Source: an uncultured Bacteroidales bacterium (GTDB lineage: Bacteria; Bacteroidota; Bacteroidia; Bacteroidales; UBA932). Taken from it: DNA of 7,829 nucleotides. The DNA lies in the NCBI GenBank assembly GCA_946408295.1, contig CAMJRT010000049.1, positions 1 to 7,829 of the forward strand, in the 5' to 3' direction. The number at the start of each line of letters is the position of its first letter. Position 1 is the first letter of the stretch. Position numbers and translations under genes: made by a program. Below the pieces are notes generated by a model, which made no database searches, was not told the origin of the DNA, and saw only the letters and a program-made list of their open reading frames with translations. Positions 1 to 7,651 of the stretch are shown here, piece by piece.

Positions 1-1274
1 TTGTTTCTTTGGCCCTGGTGGTCTGGGCGTGTTCTCCGGATAATGAACCGTTGGTGCAAAGGCAGACGGAGTGGATGGAGCGTGTGCCGGGGTTTCAGGA
101 TAAGTATGAGCTGGAACAACTGTTGGTCTTTAGCCGGCACAATATCCGCACTCCGCTGGTGGGGAAAGGGTCGGTGCTTTCCAGGGTTACGGATCCCCAA
201 AACCAGTGGTTCCCGTGGCAGGATCCGGCCGGTCATCTTACAGCCAAAGGCCAGCGGCTGGAAGCCATTATGGGTTCCTTCTTCCGCGAATGGCTCTCGA
301 AAAAGGACTTTCTGGACAAGTATTCGGCCCATCCGTCCACTTTCCGCTTCTATGCAAACGCCAAACAGCGTTGCCAGTTGACAGCCCGCACCTTTGCCGA
401 GGCGCTGTTTCCGGGAAACCCTCCCGAGGTGGAAATGCACGTGGCATTCGACACGATGGACCCGGTATTCACGCCTAAGTTTACCAAACTGCCGGCCAGC
501 TTTGTTGAAAAAGCGCAGCAGGAAATCGCCGAGCGGGTGGGGGATGACATCAACGCGGGCATTGCCGCCCAGTATTCGCTCATAGAAAGGGTCATCGGAA
601 TAACGGGTGCCCCTGCCTATCCCGACACCACATCCTTTTCCCAGTTCCCTTCTTATGTCGGCTTTACCTTGGACGAAGAGCCTTTTATGAATGGGGGGCT
701 CAAGATGGCCTGCACGGTATCCGACGCACTTGTGCTACAGTATTACGAGGAACCGGACGAGAAAAAAGCCGCTTTCGGTCAAATGCTTACGCCAAATGAT
801 TGGAAAAATGTCTCGCTGGTGAAGGACTGGTATGGAGATGCGCTCTTTACCGCCCCGTCCATTGCCGTGAACGTTGCCCATCCTCTGTTGCAGACGATGC
901 TGGCTGAACTGCAGCAGAGCGGCCGGGTGTTTACTTTCCTGTGCGGGCACGATTCGAATATCGGCAGTGTGCTTGCGGCGCTGGAAACCGAGGAATACGA
1001 CCTCCCGGGAACCATCGAGAATCGAACGCCGATCGGCAGCAAGATCATCATAGAAAAATTCAAGGCAAAAGACGGTTCGCAGTATGCCGATTGTTGGCTT
1101 GTATATGCGTCCACCAGCCAGATACGAAGCGAAAGCGCAATCACTTATGCCCAGCCGCCCGTTGCTGTCCGCCTGCGGCTGCACGGGCTTTCCGAAAATG
1201 CCGACCGTCTGTATAAGCTCTCGGATGTGGAACAGCGCTTTACAAAGGCCATAGCAGCCTACGATTCCTTGTGA
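1..1274 (+). CDS. Histidine acid phosphatase, glucose-1-phosphatase (Agp) type lipoprotein, 5' partial
   Basis: Probable periplasmic or surface-anchored phosphomonoesterase of histidine phosphatase clan 2, the group of Agp and phytases; these enzymes remove phosphate from sugar phosphates or inositol phosphates through a phospho-histidine intermediate. The catalytic R-H-N-I-R-T-P motif is encoded at about 135-155, where Agp also has Asn in place of the usual Gly. The following stretch (GKGSVL, W..W, LT.KG..LE..MG..FREWL) follows Agp closely. The C-terminal catalytic H-D pair (GHDSN) is at 948-959. The frame is open to the left edge (reading frame begins at base 3), so the true start lies outside; the TTG at 9 is not a credible start. 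The first residues (SLALVVWAC, then SPDNE) look like the end of a type II signal peptide with the lipid-bearing Cys at 30-32, though Trp at -2 is unusual. About 424 codons are visible, close to the full family length. Exact substrate is not decidable. Confidence 0.9.
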   Translation, partial: VSLALVVWACSPDNEPLVQRQTEWMERVPGFQDKYELEQLLVFSRHNIRTPLVGKGSVLSRVTDPQNQWFPWQDPAGHLTAKGQRLEAIMGSFFREWLSKKDFLDKYSAHPSTFRFYANAKQRCQLTARTFAEALFPGNPPEVEMHVAFDTMDPVFTPKFTKLPASFVEKAQQEIAERVGDDINAGIAAQYSLIERVIGITGAPAYPDTTSFSQFPSYVGFTLDEEPFMNGGLKMACTVSDALVLQYYEEPDEKKAAFGQMLTPNDWKNVSLVKDWYGDALFTAPSIAVNVAHPLLQTMLAELQQSGRVFTFLCGHDSNIGSVLAALETEEYDLPGTIENRTPIGSKIIIEKFKAKDGSQYADCWLVYASTSQIRSESAITYAQPPVAVRLRLHGLSENADRLYKLSDVEQRFTKAIAAYDSL

Positions 1275-1593
1275 AAACAGGGTTCTGAAAACCCCTTGTG
1301 GTGAGGCACATTTTATGGTGCTGGGACTTTACCCCGTTGACCATTATGTAATCGCTCGCGTGCCAACGGGGACGAAATGCTCCGCTGGCTTCGGGGGAAC
1401 TGATGTATGTCTTGGTGTCTTCCATACCCGCAGAAAACATCACCGTCTCACCGATGACAGGGGACATTTCTTCAAAGGGCTTGACCTCATTGGAGATTTC
1501 TTCGTTTTGGGGCAGTTCCTTTTGGCAGGACAGAATCGCGCAGGCGCAGAGAAGCGCACCCGTGAAATAAGTGAAAAGAGTTTGCTTTTTCAT
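1240..1593 (-). pseudogene. 3'-truncated fimbrillin-like lipoprotein
   Basis: The N-terminus is a good type II signal peptide: MKKQ, a hydrophobic stretch, then lipobox I-L-S-C with Cys at residue 23, followed by QKE. Residues 49-88 (TVMFSAGMEDTKTY, a Trp at 77, then SDYIMVNGV) match the opening of Bacteroidota fimbrillin-like and related surface lipoproteins, which read roughly F.A..E.TKTY...W...D.I.VNG. Such proteins are normally several hundred residues long. Here the family pattern stops near residue 90 (about base 1324), and the last ~27 residues (Q-H-H-K to L-L-W-P-L) look random and run antisense into the 3' end of the phosphatase gene. This indicates a deletion or rearrangement that removed the rest of the gene, with the junction between about 1275 and 1324. 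A short exported product could still be made. No convincing promoter was found. Family assignment is by pattern only. Confidence 0.65.
1279..1296. terminator. Weak hairpin after the phosphatase gene
   Basis: AGGGTT and AACCCCT form a short imperfect stem with a 4-5 base loop a few bases after the phosphatase stop codon. There is no clear T-run on either side, so this is only a possible terminator. Confidence 0.2.
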
Positions 1594-2180: not shown

Positions 2181-2208
2181 CTATTGGTAGAAAAAGAACC
2201 AAAATCGG

Positions 2209-2240
2209 TTAAAGAATCTCCGATAGATTGTCTACCTTTG
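2209..2240 (+). promoter_or_regulatory. Bacteroidota-type promoter of the alpha/beta hydrolase gene
   Basis: TACCTTTG at 2233-2240 is a perfect TAnnTTTG -7 box. A one-mismatch -33 element (TTA, 2209-2211) lies 21 bases upstream. Transcription would start around 2245-2250, giving a leader of about 15 bases before the ATG at 2262. Confidence 0.7.
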
Positions 2241-2261
2241 CACCATAAAAACGACAACGAG

Positions 2262-3344
2262 ATGAATATCAAAACCATCCTTACAGTCTGCACCGCATCT
2301 TTGATGCTGCTTGCCTGCAAAACAAACACGAACGAGAATATGAGTACCCTGAATCTTACCCGGGAATGGGACAAGACCTTCCCCAAGTCCGAGCTGGTCG
2401 ACCACAGCAAGGTCACCTTCCACAATCGCTACGGCATCGAGCTGGCGGCGGATATGTATATGCCAAAGGATGCCGAGGGGAAACTCCCCGCCATTGCGGT
2501 GAGCGGTCCGTTCGGCGCTGTGAAGGAGCAATCCAGCGGTCTCTATGCCCAGCATATGGCCGAGCGCGGATTCCTGGCCGTCGCATTCGATCCATCCTTT
2601 ACCGGTGAATCCGGCGGTGAGCCTCGCAGAATGGCATCTCCCGACATCAATACCGAAGACTTCCTGGCGGCCGTGGATTTCCTTTCCACCTGTGACCTGG
2701 TCGATCCGCAGCGCATCGGTATCATCGGCATTTGCGGTTTCGGCGGAATGGCCATCAACGCCGCAGCGCTTGACCCGAGAATCAAGGCCACCGTAGCCAG
2801 TACGATGTACGATATGAGCAAAGTCAATGTGGAAGGCTACTTCGCAAGTCAAGATACGCCCGCACAGCGCCAGGAAAAACGCAAGGCCCTGGCTGCACAG
2901 CGAACCAAGGACTATGCCGCAGGCTCTTACGAGCGCGCCGGCGGCGTCATCGACCCTCTTCCGGAAGATGCCCCGTGGTTCGTGAAAGACTATCACGCCT
3001 ATTACAAAACGCCCCGCGGCTATCATAAGCGCAGCGGCAATTCCACCGACGGCTGGAACGTGATTGGCTGCCAGAGTTTCCTGAACCAGCCCCTGCTGGC
3101 CTGGGCCGGTGAGATTGAGACCCCCGTGCTTCTTATCCACGGCGAGAAGGCCCACAGCCGCTATTTCAGCGAATATGCTTTCGAACGTATGACCGGTCTC
3201 CACGTCAAGGGCGAGAGCGCCGTCGAAGGAAACAAGGAACTGATGATGATTCCCGGAGCCTCACACGTGGACCTTTATGACGATGTTGCCGGCGTGATTC
3301 CCTACGACAAAATGGAAGCCTTCTTCAAGGCAAACCTGAAATAG
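2262..3344 (+). CDS. Alpha/beta hydrolase lipoprotein, dienelactone hydrolase/YcjY type
   Basis: A 360-residue predicted esterase- or hydrolase-fold protein. I chose the ATG at 2262 because it follows the promoter closely and begins a proper lipoprotein signal peptide: MNIK, hydrophobic stretch, lipobox L-L-A-C with Cys at residue 19, then KTNTNEN. The frame is open further upstream, but that part would include the promoter. The nucleophile elbow reads G-I-C-G-F-G-G with Cys at residue 158, as in dienelactone hydrolases, instead of the Ser of most esterases. A motif typical of the YcjY-like family, DPSFTGESGGEPR, is present. The likely acid is in H-G-E-K (Glu 295) and the His is in G-A-S-H (His 335). 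Substrate unknown. It is divergent from the AraC remnant, probably its former regulator, and is followed after one base by a 31-codon ORF. No Shine-Dalgarno sequence precedes the start. Confidence 0.88.
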   Translation: MNIKTILTVCTASLMLLACKTNTNENMSTLNLTREWDKTFPKSELVDHSKVTFHNRYGIELAADMYMPKDAEGKLPAIAVSGPFGAVKEQSSGLYAQHMAERGFLAVAFDPSFTGESGGEPRRMASPDINTEDFLAAVDFLSTCDLVDPQRIGIIGICGFGGMAINAAALDPRIKATVASTMYDMSKVNVEGYFASQDTPAQRQEKRKALAAQRTKDYAAGSYERAGGVIDPLPEDAPWFVKDYHAYYKTPRGYHKRSGNSTDGWNVIGCQSFLNQPLLAWAGEIETPVLLIHGEKAHSRYFSEYAFERMTGLHVKGESAVEGNKELMMIPGASHVDLYDDVAGVIPYDKMEAFFKANLK

Positions 3345-3441: not shown

Positions 3442-3760
3442 CGGAATTTTACCGCCTTAGTTTCCATTGTACTATGGCTTTGAGTACTTGCTCTTTTATA
3501 ACCTACATCATTGCGGCGAGGAAATTCTCATAGCCGAGTTCCACCAGGCGAAATGTTGTTTGCTGTTTCCAATTGATGAGGACTCTTAATCGGAAAAGCC
3601 TGTTGTATTTCCTGTTAATTCTTGCCGATAACGGCAAAATACTATATTTGGGCTGGTTTTTACAAGAAAATTGCCGATTAAGTATTAATTGCTTCGATAA
3701 ATTCGCGTGCGGTCGTTATGACAGGGGCCGTTAAAATTCTGTTACAATTGATTTCGCGTC
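3442..3760. other. AT-rich intergenic region with hairpin and inverted repeat
   Basis: No convincing gene. It holds a perfect hairpin TTGCCG-ATAA-CGGCAA (3622-3637) and a 9-base inverted repeat CTTAATCGG (3585-3593) / CCGATTAAG (3674-3682) enclosing it. GCGG/CCGC at 3441-3455 could form a small stem after the small ORF. The minus strand is open for about 70 codons (3503-3715), ending FRLVELGYENFLAAMM, but has no usable start codon and no recognised family; it may be a worn gene end. Confidence 0.5.
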
Positions 3761-3791
3761 TTGAGAAATTCGGCTTGTGTAAGTATCTTTG
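3761..3791 (+). promoter_or_regulatory. Bacteroidota-type promoter of the Na/Pi cotransporter fusion gene
   Basis: TTG at 3761-3763, a 20-base spacer, then TATCTTTG at 3784-3791. This fits the Bacteroidota sigma-ABfr-type consensus (TTG, 19-21 bases, TAnnTTTG) exactly. Transcription should start near 3797, leaving a leader of only about 10-15 bases before the ATG at 3810. Confidence 0.8.
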
Positions 3792-3809: not shown

Positions 3810-5771
3810 ATGCTGATTGTATTGAAACTTCTGGGCGCCATCGCCATCCTGATATTCGGTATGAAAATGACCAGCGAGGCCCTGCAGAAAATGGCCGGTC
3901 CCCAGCTTCGTCATTTGTTTGGGGCGATGACGAGAAATCGCTTCTCCGGTGTGGCCACCGGTGCCTTGATAACGGTAGCCGTGCAGTCATCTTCGGCAAC
4001 CACCGTGATGACGGTGTCCTTCGTGAATGCGGCACTGCTCTCCTTGACACAGGCCATATCGGTTATTATGGGCGCCAATATCGGCACCACACTGACGGCC
4101 TGGATACTGTCGGCCGGCTTTGCCTTTAATATCGTCAACATCGTCTGGCCAGTCCTATGTGTCGGTATCGCTCTGATTCAACTAGGAAGGCATCGGTATT
4201 TCGGTGACTTTCTGATCGGACTGGGTTTCCTGCTCTATGCGATGGTCCTTCTGAAGAACACCGGGGTGGAGATGGATCTCGCCAGTAAGCCGGCCGTCGT
4301 GGATTTCTTCTCCAGTTTCAAGACCAACTACGCCACTATCCTGCTGTTCCTGCTCATCGGCACCATCCTTACCGCTGTCCTCCAGAGTTCGGCGGCGCTG
4401 ATGGCCATTACGATGGTTCTCTGTGCCACGGGAGCCATTTCCATCTATCAGGGTATCGCGTTGGTGATGGGTGAGAATATCGGCACCACCTCCACGGCCA
4501 ATCTGGCGGCATTGAACGCGAACACACAGGCCCGGCGGACGGCTATGGCCCACCTGGTGTTCAACGTATTCGGTGTCATATGGATGCTCATCGTTTTCTT
4601 CCCTTTTGTGAGGATGGTCTGTGGCATCGTGGGACTTGACCCGGAGGCGCCGCAGCCGGACACGACATTGCTTTCCTTTACGCTGGCGGCTTTCCACACC
4701 GGATTCAATGTCATCAATACGGCCATTCTGATTGGGTTCATCCCGCAGATTGAAAAACTGGTTTGCAAGATTGTCCGGCCCAGGAAGTCTGACGAGGAAG
4801 ATGAGTTCCGCCTTCAATATATCCGTGGTGGTATTATGAAAACACCGGAAATTTCCGTGCTTCAGGCGCAGAAAGAGATTGTCGTTTACGGAGAAAAGAC
4901 CCAGCATATGTTCGCCTTGGTGGAGGAACTTTATGCCGCGAAAGATGAGCAGGCTTTTTCCCGACTCTATGACCGCATCGAGAAGGGTGAGGAAGGCAGC
5001 GACCGGATGGAGAACGAGATTGGCCGATACCTGGGCGATCTCGGGTCGGCCCATCTGTCCGATGATACGAAAGAGATGGTCAGGGCGATGCTTCGGCAGA
5101 TCGGGGAACTGGAATCCGTGGGGGACAGTTGCTTCAATCTGGCGCGCATCCTTCGCCGCAAGCGGAGCAACAAGATTGAGTTTACCGAGCAGCAGGATGA
5201 AGGTGTCCAGGAGATGTTCTCGCTGGTCGGTGATGCCCTTACCAGGATGAACGAACTTCTTTCCGGGCGCAAAGAAAAACTGGACCTGGCACGCTCCGAG
5301 GATATTGAGCGCAGGATCAATGCCTGCCGCAATGCACTCAAACAGCAGAATATCGATAATCTTGACGATCATCAATACGGATACGACAAGGGGACCGTGT
5401 ATGCAGATCTCGTGAGCGAATGCGAAAAGACGGGAGACTATATTATCAACGTGGTGGAAGCCCGGCTCGGCGCCGTCCGCAACGGAATCCGCTATCTGGG
5501 CATCCAGATGGATACGGATGCGAAAAAGGTGACCGTGGACGGCGAATATGTATCTTTCACGAAGACCGAATATGAACTTCTGAAACTCTTTCTGGAGAAT
5601 CGGGGAAAGGTCTTTTCGCGGGAGCAGCTGCTGTCGGCCGTGTGGCCTGACGATGTCATTGTAACTCCCCGGACTGTGGATGTGAACATCACGCGCATCC
5701 GGAAGAAAATCGGCCCGTATGCCGATGCGCTTGTGGCCCGGGCAGGGTTTGGTTATTCTTTTCAGGAATAA
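3810..5771 (+). CDS. Na/Pi cotransporter-PhoU protein with C-terminal OmpR-type winged-helix DNA-binding domain
   Basis: A 653-residue inner-membrane protein. Residues 1 to about 325 are a type II Na+/phosphate cotransporter domain with the two inverted repeats of that family: QSSSATT at 59-65 with GANIGTT at 88-94, and QSSAA at 192-196 with GENIGTT at 221-227, among multiple hydrophobic segments. Residues ~345-555 form a helical PhoU-like cytoplasmic region (VYGEKTQHMFALVEEL; IGELESVGDSCFNLARIL; CEKTGDYIINVVEARLG). Residues ~562-653 are an OmpR/PhoB-type winged helix: TKTEYELLKLFLENRGKVF, SREQLLSAVWPDD, TPRTVDVNITRIRKKIG, and GFGYSFQE at the end. It closely resembles the effector end of Bacteroidota response regulators, but no receiver domain is present. 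Family members without this domain are about 560 residues. The frame is continuous with a short linker. The gene appears to be transcribed alone from the promoter at 3761-3791. The transporter and winged-helix calls are sure. The idea of phosphate-responsive, membrane-bound gene control is inference. Confidence 0.93.
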   Translation: MLIVLKLLGAIAILIFGMKMTSEALQKMAGPQLRHLFGAMTRNRFSGVATGALITVAVQSSSATTVMTVSFVNAALLSLTQAISVIMGANIGTTLTAWILSAGFAFNIVNIVWPVLCVGIALIQLGRHRYFGDFLIGLGFLLYAMVLLKNTGVEMDLASKPAVVDFFSSFKTNYATILLFLLIGTILTAVLQSSAALMAITMVLCATGAISIYQGIALVMGENIGTTSTANLAALNANTQARRTAMAHLVFNVFGVIWMLIVFFPFVRMVCGIVGLDPEAPQPDTTLLSFTLAAFHTGFNVINTAILIGFIPQIEKLVCKIVRPRKSDEEDEFRLQYIRGGIMKTPEISVLQAQKEIVVYGEKTQHMFALVEELYAAKDEQAFSRLYDRIEKGEEGSDRMENEIGRYLGDLGSAHLSDDTKEMVRAMLRQIGELESVGDSCFNLARILRRKRSNKIEFTEQQDEGVQEMFSLVGDALTRMNELLSGRKEKLDLARSEDIERRINACRNALKQQNIDNLDDHQYGYDKGTVYADLVSECEKTGDYIINVVEARLGAVRNGIRYLGIQMDTDAKKVTVDGEYVSFTKTEYELLKLFLENRGKVFSREQLLSAVWPDDVIVTPRTVDVNITRIRKKIGPYADALVARAGFGYSFQE

Positions 5772-6068: not shown

Positions 6069-6638
6069 CTACTCGGCTTTGGCTTCTTCTGCGGGAGCTT
6101 CGGCTTTCTTGGCCTTGGGGGCTTTCGCTTTAGGGGCTTTGGGAGCCTCTTCAGCAACAGCCTCTTCCTTCACTTCAGCGGCGGCTTCGGCGGCAGGGGC
6201 CTCGGCGGCAGCGGCTTTCTTGGAGGAACGGCGGGTGGTCTTCTTCGCCGCTTTCTTCGTCGTGGAGGCAAGAGCGGCTTCGTTGAAGTCAACCAGTTCG
6301 ATGAGGGCCATTTCGGCACCGTCACCCTGACGGAAACCGGTCTTGAGCACGCGGGTATAGCCACCCGGACGGTCTGCAATCTTCGGTGCGATAACGCGGA
6401 AGAGTTCGGAAACGGCCTCTTTGTTCTTGAGGTAGCTGAACACGGTACGGCGGGAAGGAGTCGTATCCTCTTTGCTCTTGGTCATCAGCGGCTCGACATA
6501 AGATTTGAGGGCTTTGGCCTTGGCAACGGTCGTGTTGATTCGTTTGAGCAGAATCAGGGACGTAGCCATAGACGCCATCAAGGCTTTGCGGTGACCACTC
6601 TTGCGGCCAAGGTGATTGATAGATCTATTGTGTCTCAT
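6069..6638 (-). CDS. rplQ: 50S ribosomal protein L17 with long charged tail
   Basis: Large-subunit ribosomal protein, 189 residues. The start [29 protein letters not shown] and the middle part (residues ~60-117: [39 protein letters not shown]) are the standard L17 core. Residues ~118-189 are a low-complexity tail of Ala, Lys, Glu and Pro repeats ([10 protein letters not shown] type). The E. coli protein is about 127 residues; longer tails of this kind are usual in Bacteroidota. The gene starts two bases after the rpoA stop codon and is the last gene of the ribosomal operon, with a hairpin about 50 bases downstream. Confidence 0.97.
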
Positions 6639-6640
6639 AC

Positions 6641-7651
6641 TTAGTTATTCTTATTCTTGGGTTCAATGTTGTACTTGGTAACATCCATACCGAAGCTCAA
6701 TTTCATCTTGTCGAGCATCGCATCAATCTCTGCAACGGATTTTTTGCCGAAGTTGCGGAGCTTCTGCAATTCCGTACGGGAATAGGAAACGAGGTCGGCG
6801 AAAGAATCGATGTCGGCGGCCTTGAGGCAGTTGTAAGCACGGACGGACAGTCCGACTTCGGAGAGTTTGGTCAACAGGAGTTTGCGGATATGACGGTCTT
6901 CGTCGCTCAATTCTCCGTTCCGGGGGATGCCGACGGGCTTCTCGGAAGTGATGCTGCCTTCGTTGGTCAGGAGGGAGAAATGGCGGATGAGGATGTCAGC
7001 CGCTTCCTGGAGAGCCTGCTTGGGAGAGATGGAACCATCCGTCTCGATATCCAAGGTCAGTTTCTCATAGTCGGTCTTCTGTTCGACACGCCAGTCTTCG
7101 CGAATCCAGTTGACATTGCGGATTGGCGTGTAGATGGCGTCCACGGCAATCGTCCCAATCGGAGCGTTCGGGTCACGGCTGTCTTCGGAAGCGACGAAGC
7201 CGCGGCCTTTGGTGATTACCAGGTTGATTTCGAGCTTGACAGAGGGCTCGAGGGAGCAGATATGCAAATCGGGGTTCAATACCGTAAAAGAAGACAATCC
7301 GTTGGAGATGTCCCCGGCGGTAAACTCATGGCGACCGCTGATAACGATGGAAACCTCTTCAGATTCGACGGACTCCACTCTTCTCTTGAAGCGAACTTGT
7401 TTGAGGTTGAGAATGATGTCCTGCATTCCTTCAATCACGCCGGGGATGGTTGCAAACTCCTGTTGCACACCGGCCACGCGGACTGAACTGATAGCAAAGC
7501 CTTCCAGGGAAGACAACAACACCCGGCGGATGGCATTGCCGATGGTGGTCGCGTAACCGGGCTCAAGGGGCCTGAACTCGAAACGGGCGGAGGTGTCCGT
7601 TCCTTCGAGCATAATGACCTCATCCGGTTTTTGAAATGCTAAGATTGCCAT
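6641..7651 (-). CDS. rpoA: DNA-directed RNA polymerase alpha subunit
   Basis: 336 residues, full length for the family. The N-terminal assembly domain (residues 1 to ~230) carries the dimerisation and beta-contact motif [25 protein letters not shown]. After a linker, the C-terminal domain (~250-320) contains [10 protein letters not shown] and [10 protein letters not shown]; these keep the Arg, Asn, Cys, Gly, Lys and Ser used for upstream-element DNA binding and activator contact in E. coli. It lies 26 bases after rpsD and two bases before rplQ, the normal Bacteroidota order. There is no Shine-Dalgarno sequence before the ATG; the upstream bases are A/T-rich, as is common in the phylum. Confidence 0.98.

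Follow-up and report, generated by a model that had tools for sequence, protein, structure and literature searches.

It has long been asked by what route PhoU signals the status of phosphate import to transcription. In PhoB of Escherichia coli the receiver holds the effector off, and in ToxR and CadC the DNA-binding domain is N-terminal and the sensor is single-pass. According to a survey (PMC10269533), ToxR, CadC and TcpP combine a DNA-binding domain and a membrane part in one polypeptide. Pseudomonas CbrA, an SLC5 transporter-histidine kinase transceptor, joins a secondary transporter to a cytosolic signalling module and signals via its kinase to a separate regulator, according to PMC13022988. 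NptA-type Na/Pi cotransporters (Staphylococcus aureus NptA; TIGR00704, NF037997) carry transporter repeats followed by PhoU, and the PhoU domain of NptA affects nptA expression via the separate two-component system PhoPR; in that species, nptA rises as phosphate falls, and deletion of the PhoU domain raised nptA expression at intermediate phosphate (PMC13170248).

The gene described here lies in a 7,829-nucleotide stretch of DNA (the window) from an uncultured Bacteroidales bacterium. Its product has the repeats and the PhoU order of NptA, and shares with PhoB (NF053854; E. coli 1gxp) the C-terminal winged helix, the RTVDV-I--R-RK recognition helix and an 11-bp direct-repeat Pho box before the gene. 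Unlike NptA, it carries the effector domain on the same chain; unlike PhoB, it is without a receiver and without a phosphorylation site and appears membrane-tethered; and unlike CbrA, it would have the DNA-binding domain itself as output. The initial annotation likened it to ToxR and CadC, a loose likeness that extends to a winged helix and a membrane part on one chain; in this protein the DNA-binding domain sits at the C-terminus, beyond PhoU, of a transporter that crosses the membrane several times. Judged by its domains, the fused protein is neither PhoB-type nor ToxR/CadC-type in layout and, if the reading given below holds, works like a one-component regulator made from NptA and PhoB.

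Domains and conservation of the fused protein

The features of the gene, all on the plus strand, are as follows.

3810-5771, plus strand: fused gene, Na/Pi cotransporter, PhoU and PhoB-type winged helix (reading frame, Pfam, NCBIfam, homologues)
3810-4784, plus strand: Na/Pi cotransporter part, residues 1-325, two Na_Pi_cotrans repeats with motifs QSSSATT and QSSAALM (Pfam, alignment, match to SLC34A2a 9z60)
4845-5468, plus strand: PhoU-like helical domain, residues 346-553 (Pfam PhoU 361-447; match to PhoU 2i0m at 376-551; AlphaFold2 helices 346-553)
5493-5768, plus strand: PhoB-type winged helix, residues 562-653 (Pfam, NCBIfam, best Foldseek matches 1gxp/1gxq, PhoB effector domain)
5670-5708, plus strand: recognition-helix stretch RTVDVNITRIRKK, residues 621-633 (alignments with E. 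coli PhoB and Bacteroidota PhoBs)

The claim that a Na/Pi cotransporter, PhoU and a complete winged helix share one frame without a receiver is borne out. The frame starts with ATG, encodes 653 amino acids and contains no internal stops. Pfam finds Na_Pi_cotrans in two stretches (best 13-149, E 1.2e-53), PhoU (PF01895) at residues 361-447 (E 4.3e-9) and Trans_reg_C at 579-651 (E 5.8e-20), and no receiver family at E <= 0.001. Residues 558-652 correspond to positions 131-225 of the Bacteroidota PhoB model NF053854, so that the match begins only at position 131, and its 119.1 bits lie under the 270 bits curated as cut-off for a whole PhoB. Searches by sequence against solved structures gave SLC34A2a (9z60) for the transporter, PhoU (2i0m) for the middle and E. 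coli PhoB (1gxp) for the end, and the top Foldseek matches of the winged helix in the PDB are the PhoB effector domains 1gxp and 1gxq. In a tree with four other OmpR-type regulators, the winged helix falls on the PhoB side of a branch with 98/95 support. Moreover, the recognition helix is intact when aligned with Bacteroidota PhoBs.

A simple hydropathy scan places about seven to nine hydrophobic segments before the C-terminal winged helix. Q59-S61 and Q192-S194 are invariant across 88 aligned sequences, fused and unfused, and sodium-coupled phosphate uptake is the putative function of the transporter part. The AlphaFold2 model (88 homologues) has a mean pLDDT of 78.7 and a pTM of 0.56, which is too low for inference about domain packing. 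In this model the PhoU helices stop at 553 and the winged helix begins at 560; the join is short, as annotated, and the linker is about 6 residues rather than the ten proposed. Values of GC3 are 0.71, 0.67 and 0.62 for transporter, PhoU and winged helix, broadly uniform across the join as the initial annotation held.

The same domain order, for which the initial annotation had suggested a search in other genomes, recurs widely. Three protein searches were made, with the window's protein, a Muribaculaceae relative (L020) and a third lineage (G150) as queries, and the best 120 of about 8000 scored sequences were taken from each. Trans_reg_C and Na_Pi_cotrans occurred together in 120/120 of the best homologues of the window's protein (one of them, P0098, without a PhoU call), in 120/120 for L020 and in 87/120 for G150. 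Hence, among these 360 sequences, all of them distinct, 327 had transporter and winged helix, and 322 of these also had a PhoU call. The unbroken first set makes an assembly error very unlikely. In the genome contigs, the fused frame was found at 21 of 76 loci (L001-L018, L020, L026, L028), and the gene in 14/199 genomes of one family and 2/149 of another.

Estimates of dN/dS from 13 chosen pairs were 0.059 for the winged helix, 0.046 for the transporter and 0.072 for PhoU, the last from 12 pairs after one saturated value was dropped; by this measure the winged helix is under purifying selection. The conserved order likewise indicates that the fused architecture is no accident. The initial annotation had offered an accidental fusion after loss of a receiver as its alternative: receiver loss does look like the origin, and such an origin is no rival to the regulator reading. 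Met567 was considered as a start for translating the winged helix on its own and was rejected, as this residue is Ile, Leu or Val in many relatives. Literature searches, to which subscription papers were mostly out of reach and which are weak evidence of novelty, had no description of a transporter-PhoU-winged helix architecture among the results listed, and the accessible text of PMC8115612 holds nothing on a fused transporter; as far as the searched literature goes, the architecture is undescribed.

Several relatives are variant in form. Two genomes carry second, diverged fused paralogues (L154 in G004 and L155 in G001, 57% and 76% identical) beside a close form. At L098 (G189:C22) the open frame has 963 aa, the fused frame extending 308 codons upstream without a stop, and at L076, a 78% identical relative with a promoter box, the reading frame ends after about 160 aa, apparently through breakage or truncation.

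Around the fused gene, the window holds at 3-1274 (plus strand) a gene cut by the window start, of the histidine phosphatase superfamily branch 2 (phytase/acid phosphatase kind, E 4.5e-15), which could belong to phosphate scavenging and whose promoter lies outside the window. A short frame at 1240-1593 (minus strand), with a lipoprotein-like signal start by eye and no Pfam match, possibly marks the beginning of a surface lipoprotein gene that has been disrupted. At 2184-3344 (plus strand) lies a Peptidase_S15-like alpha/beta hydrolase, and at L020 a gene 77% identical to it lies on the opposite strand, about 0.9 kb past the fused gene. The fused gene is adjoined by rplQ and rpoA (6069-7651, minus strand). 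Within the fetched flanks these two neighbours were not found at the compared loci, and the genomic place of the fused gene thus varies.

Pho box and promoter of the fused gene

Upstream of the gene, three elements can be proposed.

3730-3751, plus strand: Pho box, 11-bp direct repeat GTTAAAATTCT GTTACAATTGA (pst-promoter profile, 21.4 bits)
3761-3763, plus strand: -33 element TTG of a presumed Bacteroidota-type promoter (sequence)
3784-3791, plus strand: -7 element TATCTTTG, set beside a presumed TAnnTTTG consensus (sequence)

We take -33 TTG with -7 TAnnTTTG to be the Bacteroidota-type promoter consensus. The Pho box is followed after nine bases by TTG and after a further 20 bases by TATCTTTG, and TTGAG is present in 12 of the 13 promoters compared.

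For comparison, the pst loci of 12 same-family genomes, chosen for PstB, were inspected for repeats. A GTTA-N7-GTTA repeat precedes the gene run holding pstB in 8/12, with L142 and L143 near-copies, and these boxes lie at a distance from their genes similar to that of the fused gene's box. Nine such pst-promoter sites from PhoB-bearing kin (L143 omitted, none from fused genes) made the Pho-box profile, which is partly built in because the pst sites were chosen by their GTTA core. For each of 70 selected transporter genes, as much as 250 bases of upstream sequence was scanned against 200 block shuffles, and 68 genes were scored, L193 and L194 being excluded because their start was not covered; fused near-copies (L001, L003-L006, L011, L012, L018, L087-L091) and L026/L028, whose promoter lies off the contig, stood outside the scan. 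At p<=0.02 a box was found in 16/23 fused promoters, many of the 16 being close relatives, in 1/8 of the nearest unfused promoters, in 3/3 testable nptA-phoB operons and in 7/34 other unfused ones. The window's box scored 21.4 bits (p 0.005, the lowest possible with 200 shuffles), and the next best site on either strand 7.5. Seven of the 23 fused promoters (L009, L095, L098, L099, L105, L154, L155) had no significant box, and the unfused L100-L104, in PhoB-less genomes, gave one weak match among five (L103).

The excess of boxes in fused over nearest unfused promoters has a Fisher p of 0.011 with related rows, and the eight nearest unfused include two paralogues from fused genomes (L156, L157) as well as L019, whose genome has a PhoB-like regulator of 245 bits. 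A tree-aware test of fusion against box on 69 rows, of which 33 and 36 bore both traits, yielded 6 pairs, about one of which agreed, and was not significant. In 13 box-aligned promoters the mean major-base fraction was 0.93 in the box, 0.52 in the preceding 60 bases, and 0.73 and 0.69 in the following stretches; from these alignments, the box appears to outlast its upstream flank.

In fused genomes that have a close match to the box, it is usually the only one. Across 32 genomes (27 fused, 5 unfused), a match with <=3 mismatches was found in 19, all fused, and in 0/5 unfused. It stood before the fused gene in 18/27 fused genomes, and in 16 of those it was the sole match; two 3-mismatch matches, in G017:C2 and G112:C63, lay away from the fused gene, and the pattern read backwards had 4 matches over the 32 genomes. 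A looser pattern matched in 27/42 genomes, in fused ones mostly once and at the same promoter, in 1/5 unfused genomes once, and 0-3 times in PhoB-bearing genomes. Since this pattern read backwards gave 16 matches against 38 rows listed forward, single extra matches mean little, and a wider regulon cannot be drawn from them. In one genome (L126, G015:C55:25619) a second perfect Pho box lies 2.85 kb ahead of the fused gene; TTGAG follows it, and neither a long frame nor a clear gene begins there.

Recognition helix and box may be linked in their fate. Among 11 rows compared, the helix fitted the PhoB pattern at 11-13 of 13 positions in the 5 fused rows with a box and at 7-11 of 13 in the 6 without (L095, L098, L099, L105, L154, L155; L009, with a weak box, and near-copies were kept out). 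The exact p of 0.009 is post hoc, on rows that are not independent, and the pattern is in keeping with helix and box being retained or lost as a pair.

Operon relatives and carrier genomes

Transporter-PhoU proteins that end near residue 558 with a separate regulator downstream, the arrangement to which the initial annotation opposed the fusion, do exist and are not the form of all relatives. Among 27 unfused loci screened for a nearby winged helix, some with short flanks, four (L194, L195, L196, L198) have a transporter-PhoU gene that ends at the join site and is followed on the same strand by a complete response regulator and then a kinase. These regulators score 308, 303, 317 and 308 bits, all above the PhoB cut-off of 270, and their winged helices are 51-63% identical to that of the window. 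The kinase of L196, the only one of the four scanned, fits PhoR best, and the best PhoR matches of the four operon genomes sit at these nptA-phoB loci. On the simplest reading, the fused gene looks like an nptA-phoB-phoR operon minus receiver and kinase.

In a transporter-PhoU tree (69 rows, quick method), three operon rows fall in a group adjoining four fused rows, and the fourth, L198, lies beside the group holding the remaining fused rows. Fused and unfused rows interleave with at least 12 changes, which suggests that the fusion was gained or lost repeatedly. In a winged-helix tree (46 rows) the fused domains lie within PhoB in three groups, and its 93 columns cannot decide between one and several fusions. 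One genome, G311, has the fused gene and a separate nptA-phoB-phoR operon; behind the stop of the unfused L100-L104, tblastn found no winged-helix remnant. In the Crocinitomicaceae-type loci L047 and L051, an OmpR-type regulator lies about 45 bp downstream of the Na/Pi-PhoU gene; these loci were rejected as a source of the fusion, as the compared regulators group with other OmpR-type proteins and not with PhoB.

Carrier genomes seldom showed a full-length PhoB. A PhoB-like regulator of at least 237 bits was found in 5/31 fused genomes (G007, G012, G013, G016, G311), three above the cut-off, and not in the other 26/31; G012 is a bin named Fibrobacter and probably mixed. For 9 fused genomes, the best E-values listed suggest that the top PhoB match is the fused domain. 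G004 yields a partial PhoB-like match of 157 bits at a contig edge, and G020 a 184-bit regulator of a kind present in 9/11 genomes compared. A PhoR-like kinase of at least 239 bits was not found in 25/29 fused genomes, the exceptions being G007, G013, G016 and G311. Many of the genomes are metagenome bins, which leaves these absences soft. PstB over its cut-off occurred in 0/14 fused genomes and in 44/199 overall.

PhoB over the cut-off was present in 1/14 fused versus 137/185 other genomes (Fisher p 8e-7, rows related). The nearest unfused genomes (G055, G123, G124, G212, G213) are also without PhoB in 5/5 cases, so PhoB loss tracks the clade and not strictly the fusion. Hence, PhoB loss was set aside as proof of replacement and serves as context, the nearest unfused kin being equally PhoB-less and the rows related. 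PhoB-like and PhoR-like pairs occur at L079 (G019:C21) and L080 (G007:C11); in G019 the pair and another NptA-PhoU gene point away from each other, and TTAA repeats spaced at 11 bp lie in the region that separates them.

Proposed working and its alternatives

On balance, we think it probable that the fused protein is a membrane-tethered, phosphate-responsive autoregulator, that is, a Na+/phosphate importer serving as its own transcription factor. In this proposal, an nptA-phoB-phoR operon lost the receiver and phoR, the nptA end becoming continuous with PhoB's effector half, and PhoU beside the transporter would stand in for the missing receiver and kinase. With PhoB's effector fixed to the PhoU of NptA, the signalling chain would be cut short: PhoU would restrain or release the winged helix according to phosphate flow; the freed winged helices of at least two transporters would bind the 11-bp direct repeat shortly ahead of the -33 element and, once bound, would set transcription of their own gene. 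The rise of nptA expression on deletion of NptA's PhoU domain in S. aureus speaks for such a role of PhoU. The proposal draws on a conserved architecture, a winged helix under purifying selection, a conserved box, the operon relatives and the scarcity of PhoB and PhoR. It predicts DNA binding, binding to the box at 3730-3751, phosphate as signal, and activation rather than repression. The one-component regulator of the initial annotation thus gains from conservation on one chain, the PhoB-type effector, the Pho box at its own gene and the 26/31 carriers in which no PhoB was found, and its phosphate response and direction would be as proposed here. Release and activation at low phosphate are favoured, with modest confidence in the sign, because the box lies upstream of the -33 element, at a pst-like distance, pst itself depending on PhoB in Bacteroides fragilis (PMC3547664), and because PstB is absent in the searched fused genomes.

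The sign is where another account competes best. The fused domain may repress its own gene, for example when phosphate is low and uptake shifts to other importers, or it may be constitutively active without phosphate input, PhoU only tuning transport; we regard this as possible and rather doubtful. A PhoB effector without its receiver would no longer be held off, as is familiar from work on E. coli PhoB. In Bacteroides fragilis, as reported in PMC3547664, PhoB is required for pst genes and several phosphatases, and low phosphate lowers the putative Na+-dependent phosphate transporter BF4351 101-fold in the wild type, a drop that the phoB mutant does not show (Table 2). BF4351, only putatively comparable to NptA-PhoU, speaks for repression, in that a PhoB-type domain may repress such a gene. 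However, the window's box lies upstream of the -33 element and not over the start, as one would expect for an activator, and shut-off of an importer at low phosphate would be odd in genomes of which 0/14 have PstB over its cut-off. The rise of nptA with falling phosphate in S. aureus (PMC13170248) also argues against it.

It is unlikely, though plausible for some relatives, that the winged helix is a leftover of the fusion on its way to being lost, either not binding DNA in the cell or only capping PhoU in a structural or dimerising role. Interleaving of fused and unfused forms implies that the winged helix is dispensable in some lineages, and several fused lineages combine less PhoB-like recognition helices with missing boxes; for those of L095, L099, L105 and L154 this account is plausible. 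It is less so for the window, where the dN/dS of 0.059 in its clade, the intact recognition helix and a box retained while its upstream flank diverged speak against it.

We judge it quite improbable that a separate PhoB acts in trans on the Pho box, as it does in other Bacteroidota, the fused domain competing with PhoB or having another partner. Such a regulator, of at least 237 bits, does occur in 5/31 fused genomes, and the box also stands at unfused nptA with operonic phoB (3/3). Yet many of the 26/31 fused genomes in which none was found retain the box, a PhoR-like kinase of at least 239 bits is missing from 25/29, and L100-L104, unfused and in PhoB-less genomes, gave only the weak match at L103. 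That the fusion is an assembly or annotation artefact can be dismissed almost outright: many of the sequences are metagenome assemblies, but hundreds of distinct homologues have a similar length and join, the winged helix is under purifying selection, and the internal start codon is not conserved (residue 567, Met in the window).

The autoregulator reading leads to a broader one, in which a single polypeptide would be a whole nutrient circuit (importer, PhoU as flux sensor, PhoB-type C-terminal effector) that binds its own promoter from the membrane, reads its own transport, has essentially one genomic target and has replaced PhoR-PhoB; on this our judgement is evenly divided. New here are a plausible source operon, a Pho box at the fused gene itself, and the 26/31 carriers in which no full-length PhoB was found. 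In the fused protein the sender and the receiver of PhoU's message are covalently joined and the kinase is seemingly gone, which makes their coupling studiable in one protein and at one promoter. It would be a case in which two signalling components have shrunk to a one-component regulator, with the apparent intermediates (operon, fusion and fusion lost) still alive in related gut bacteria.
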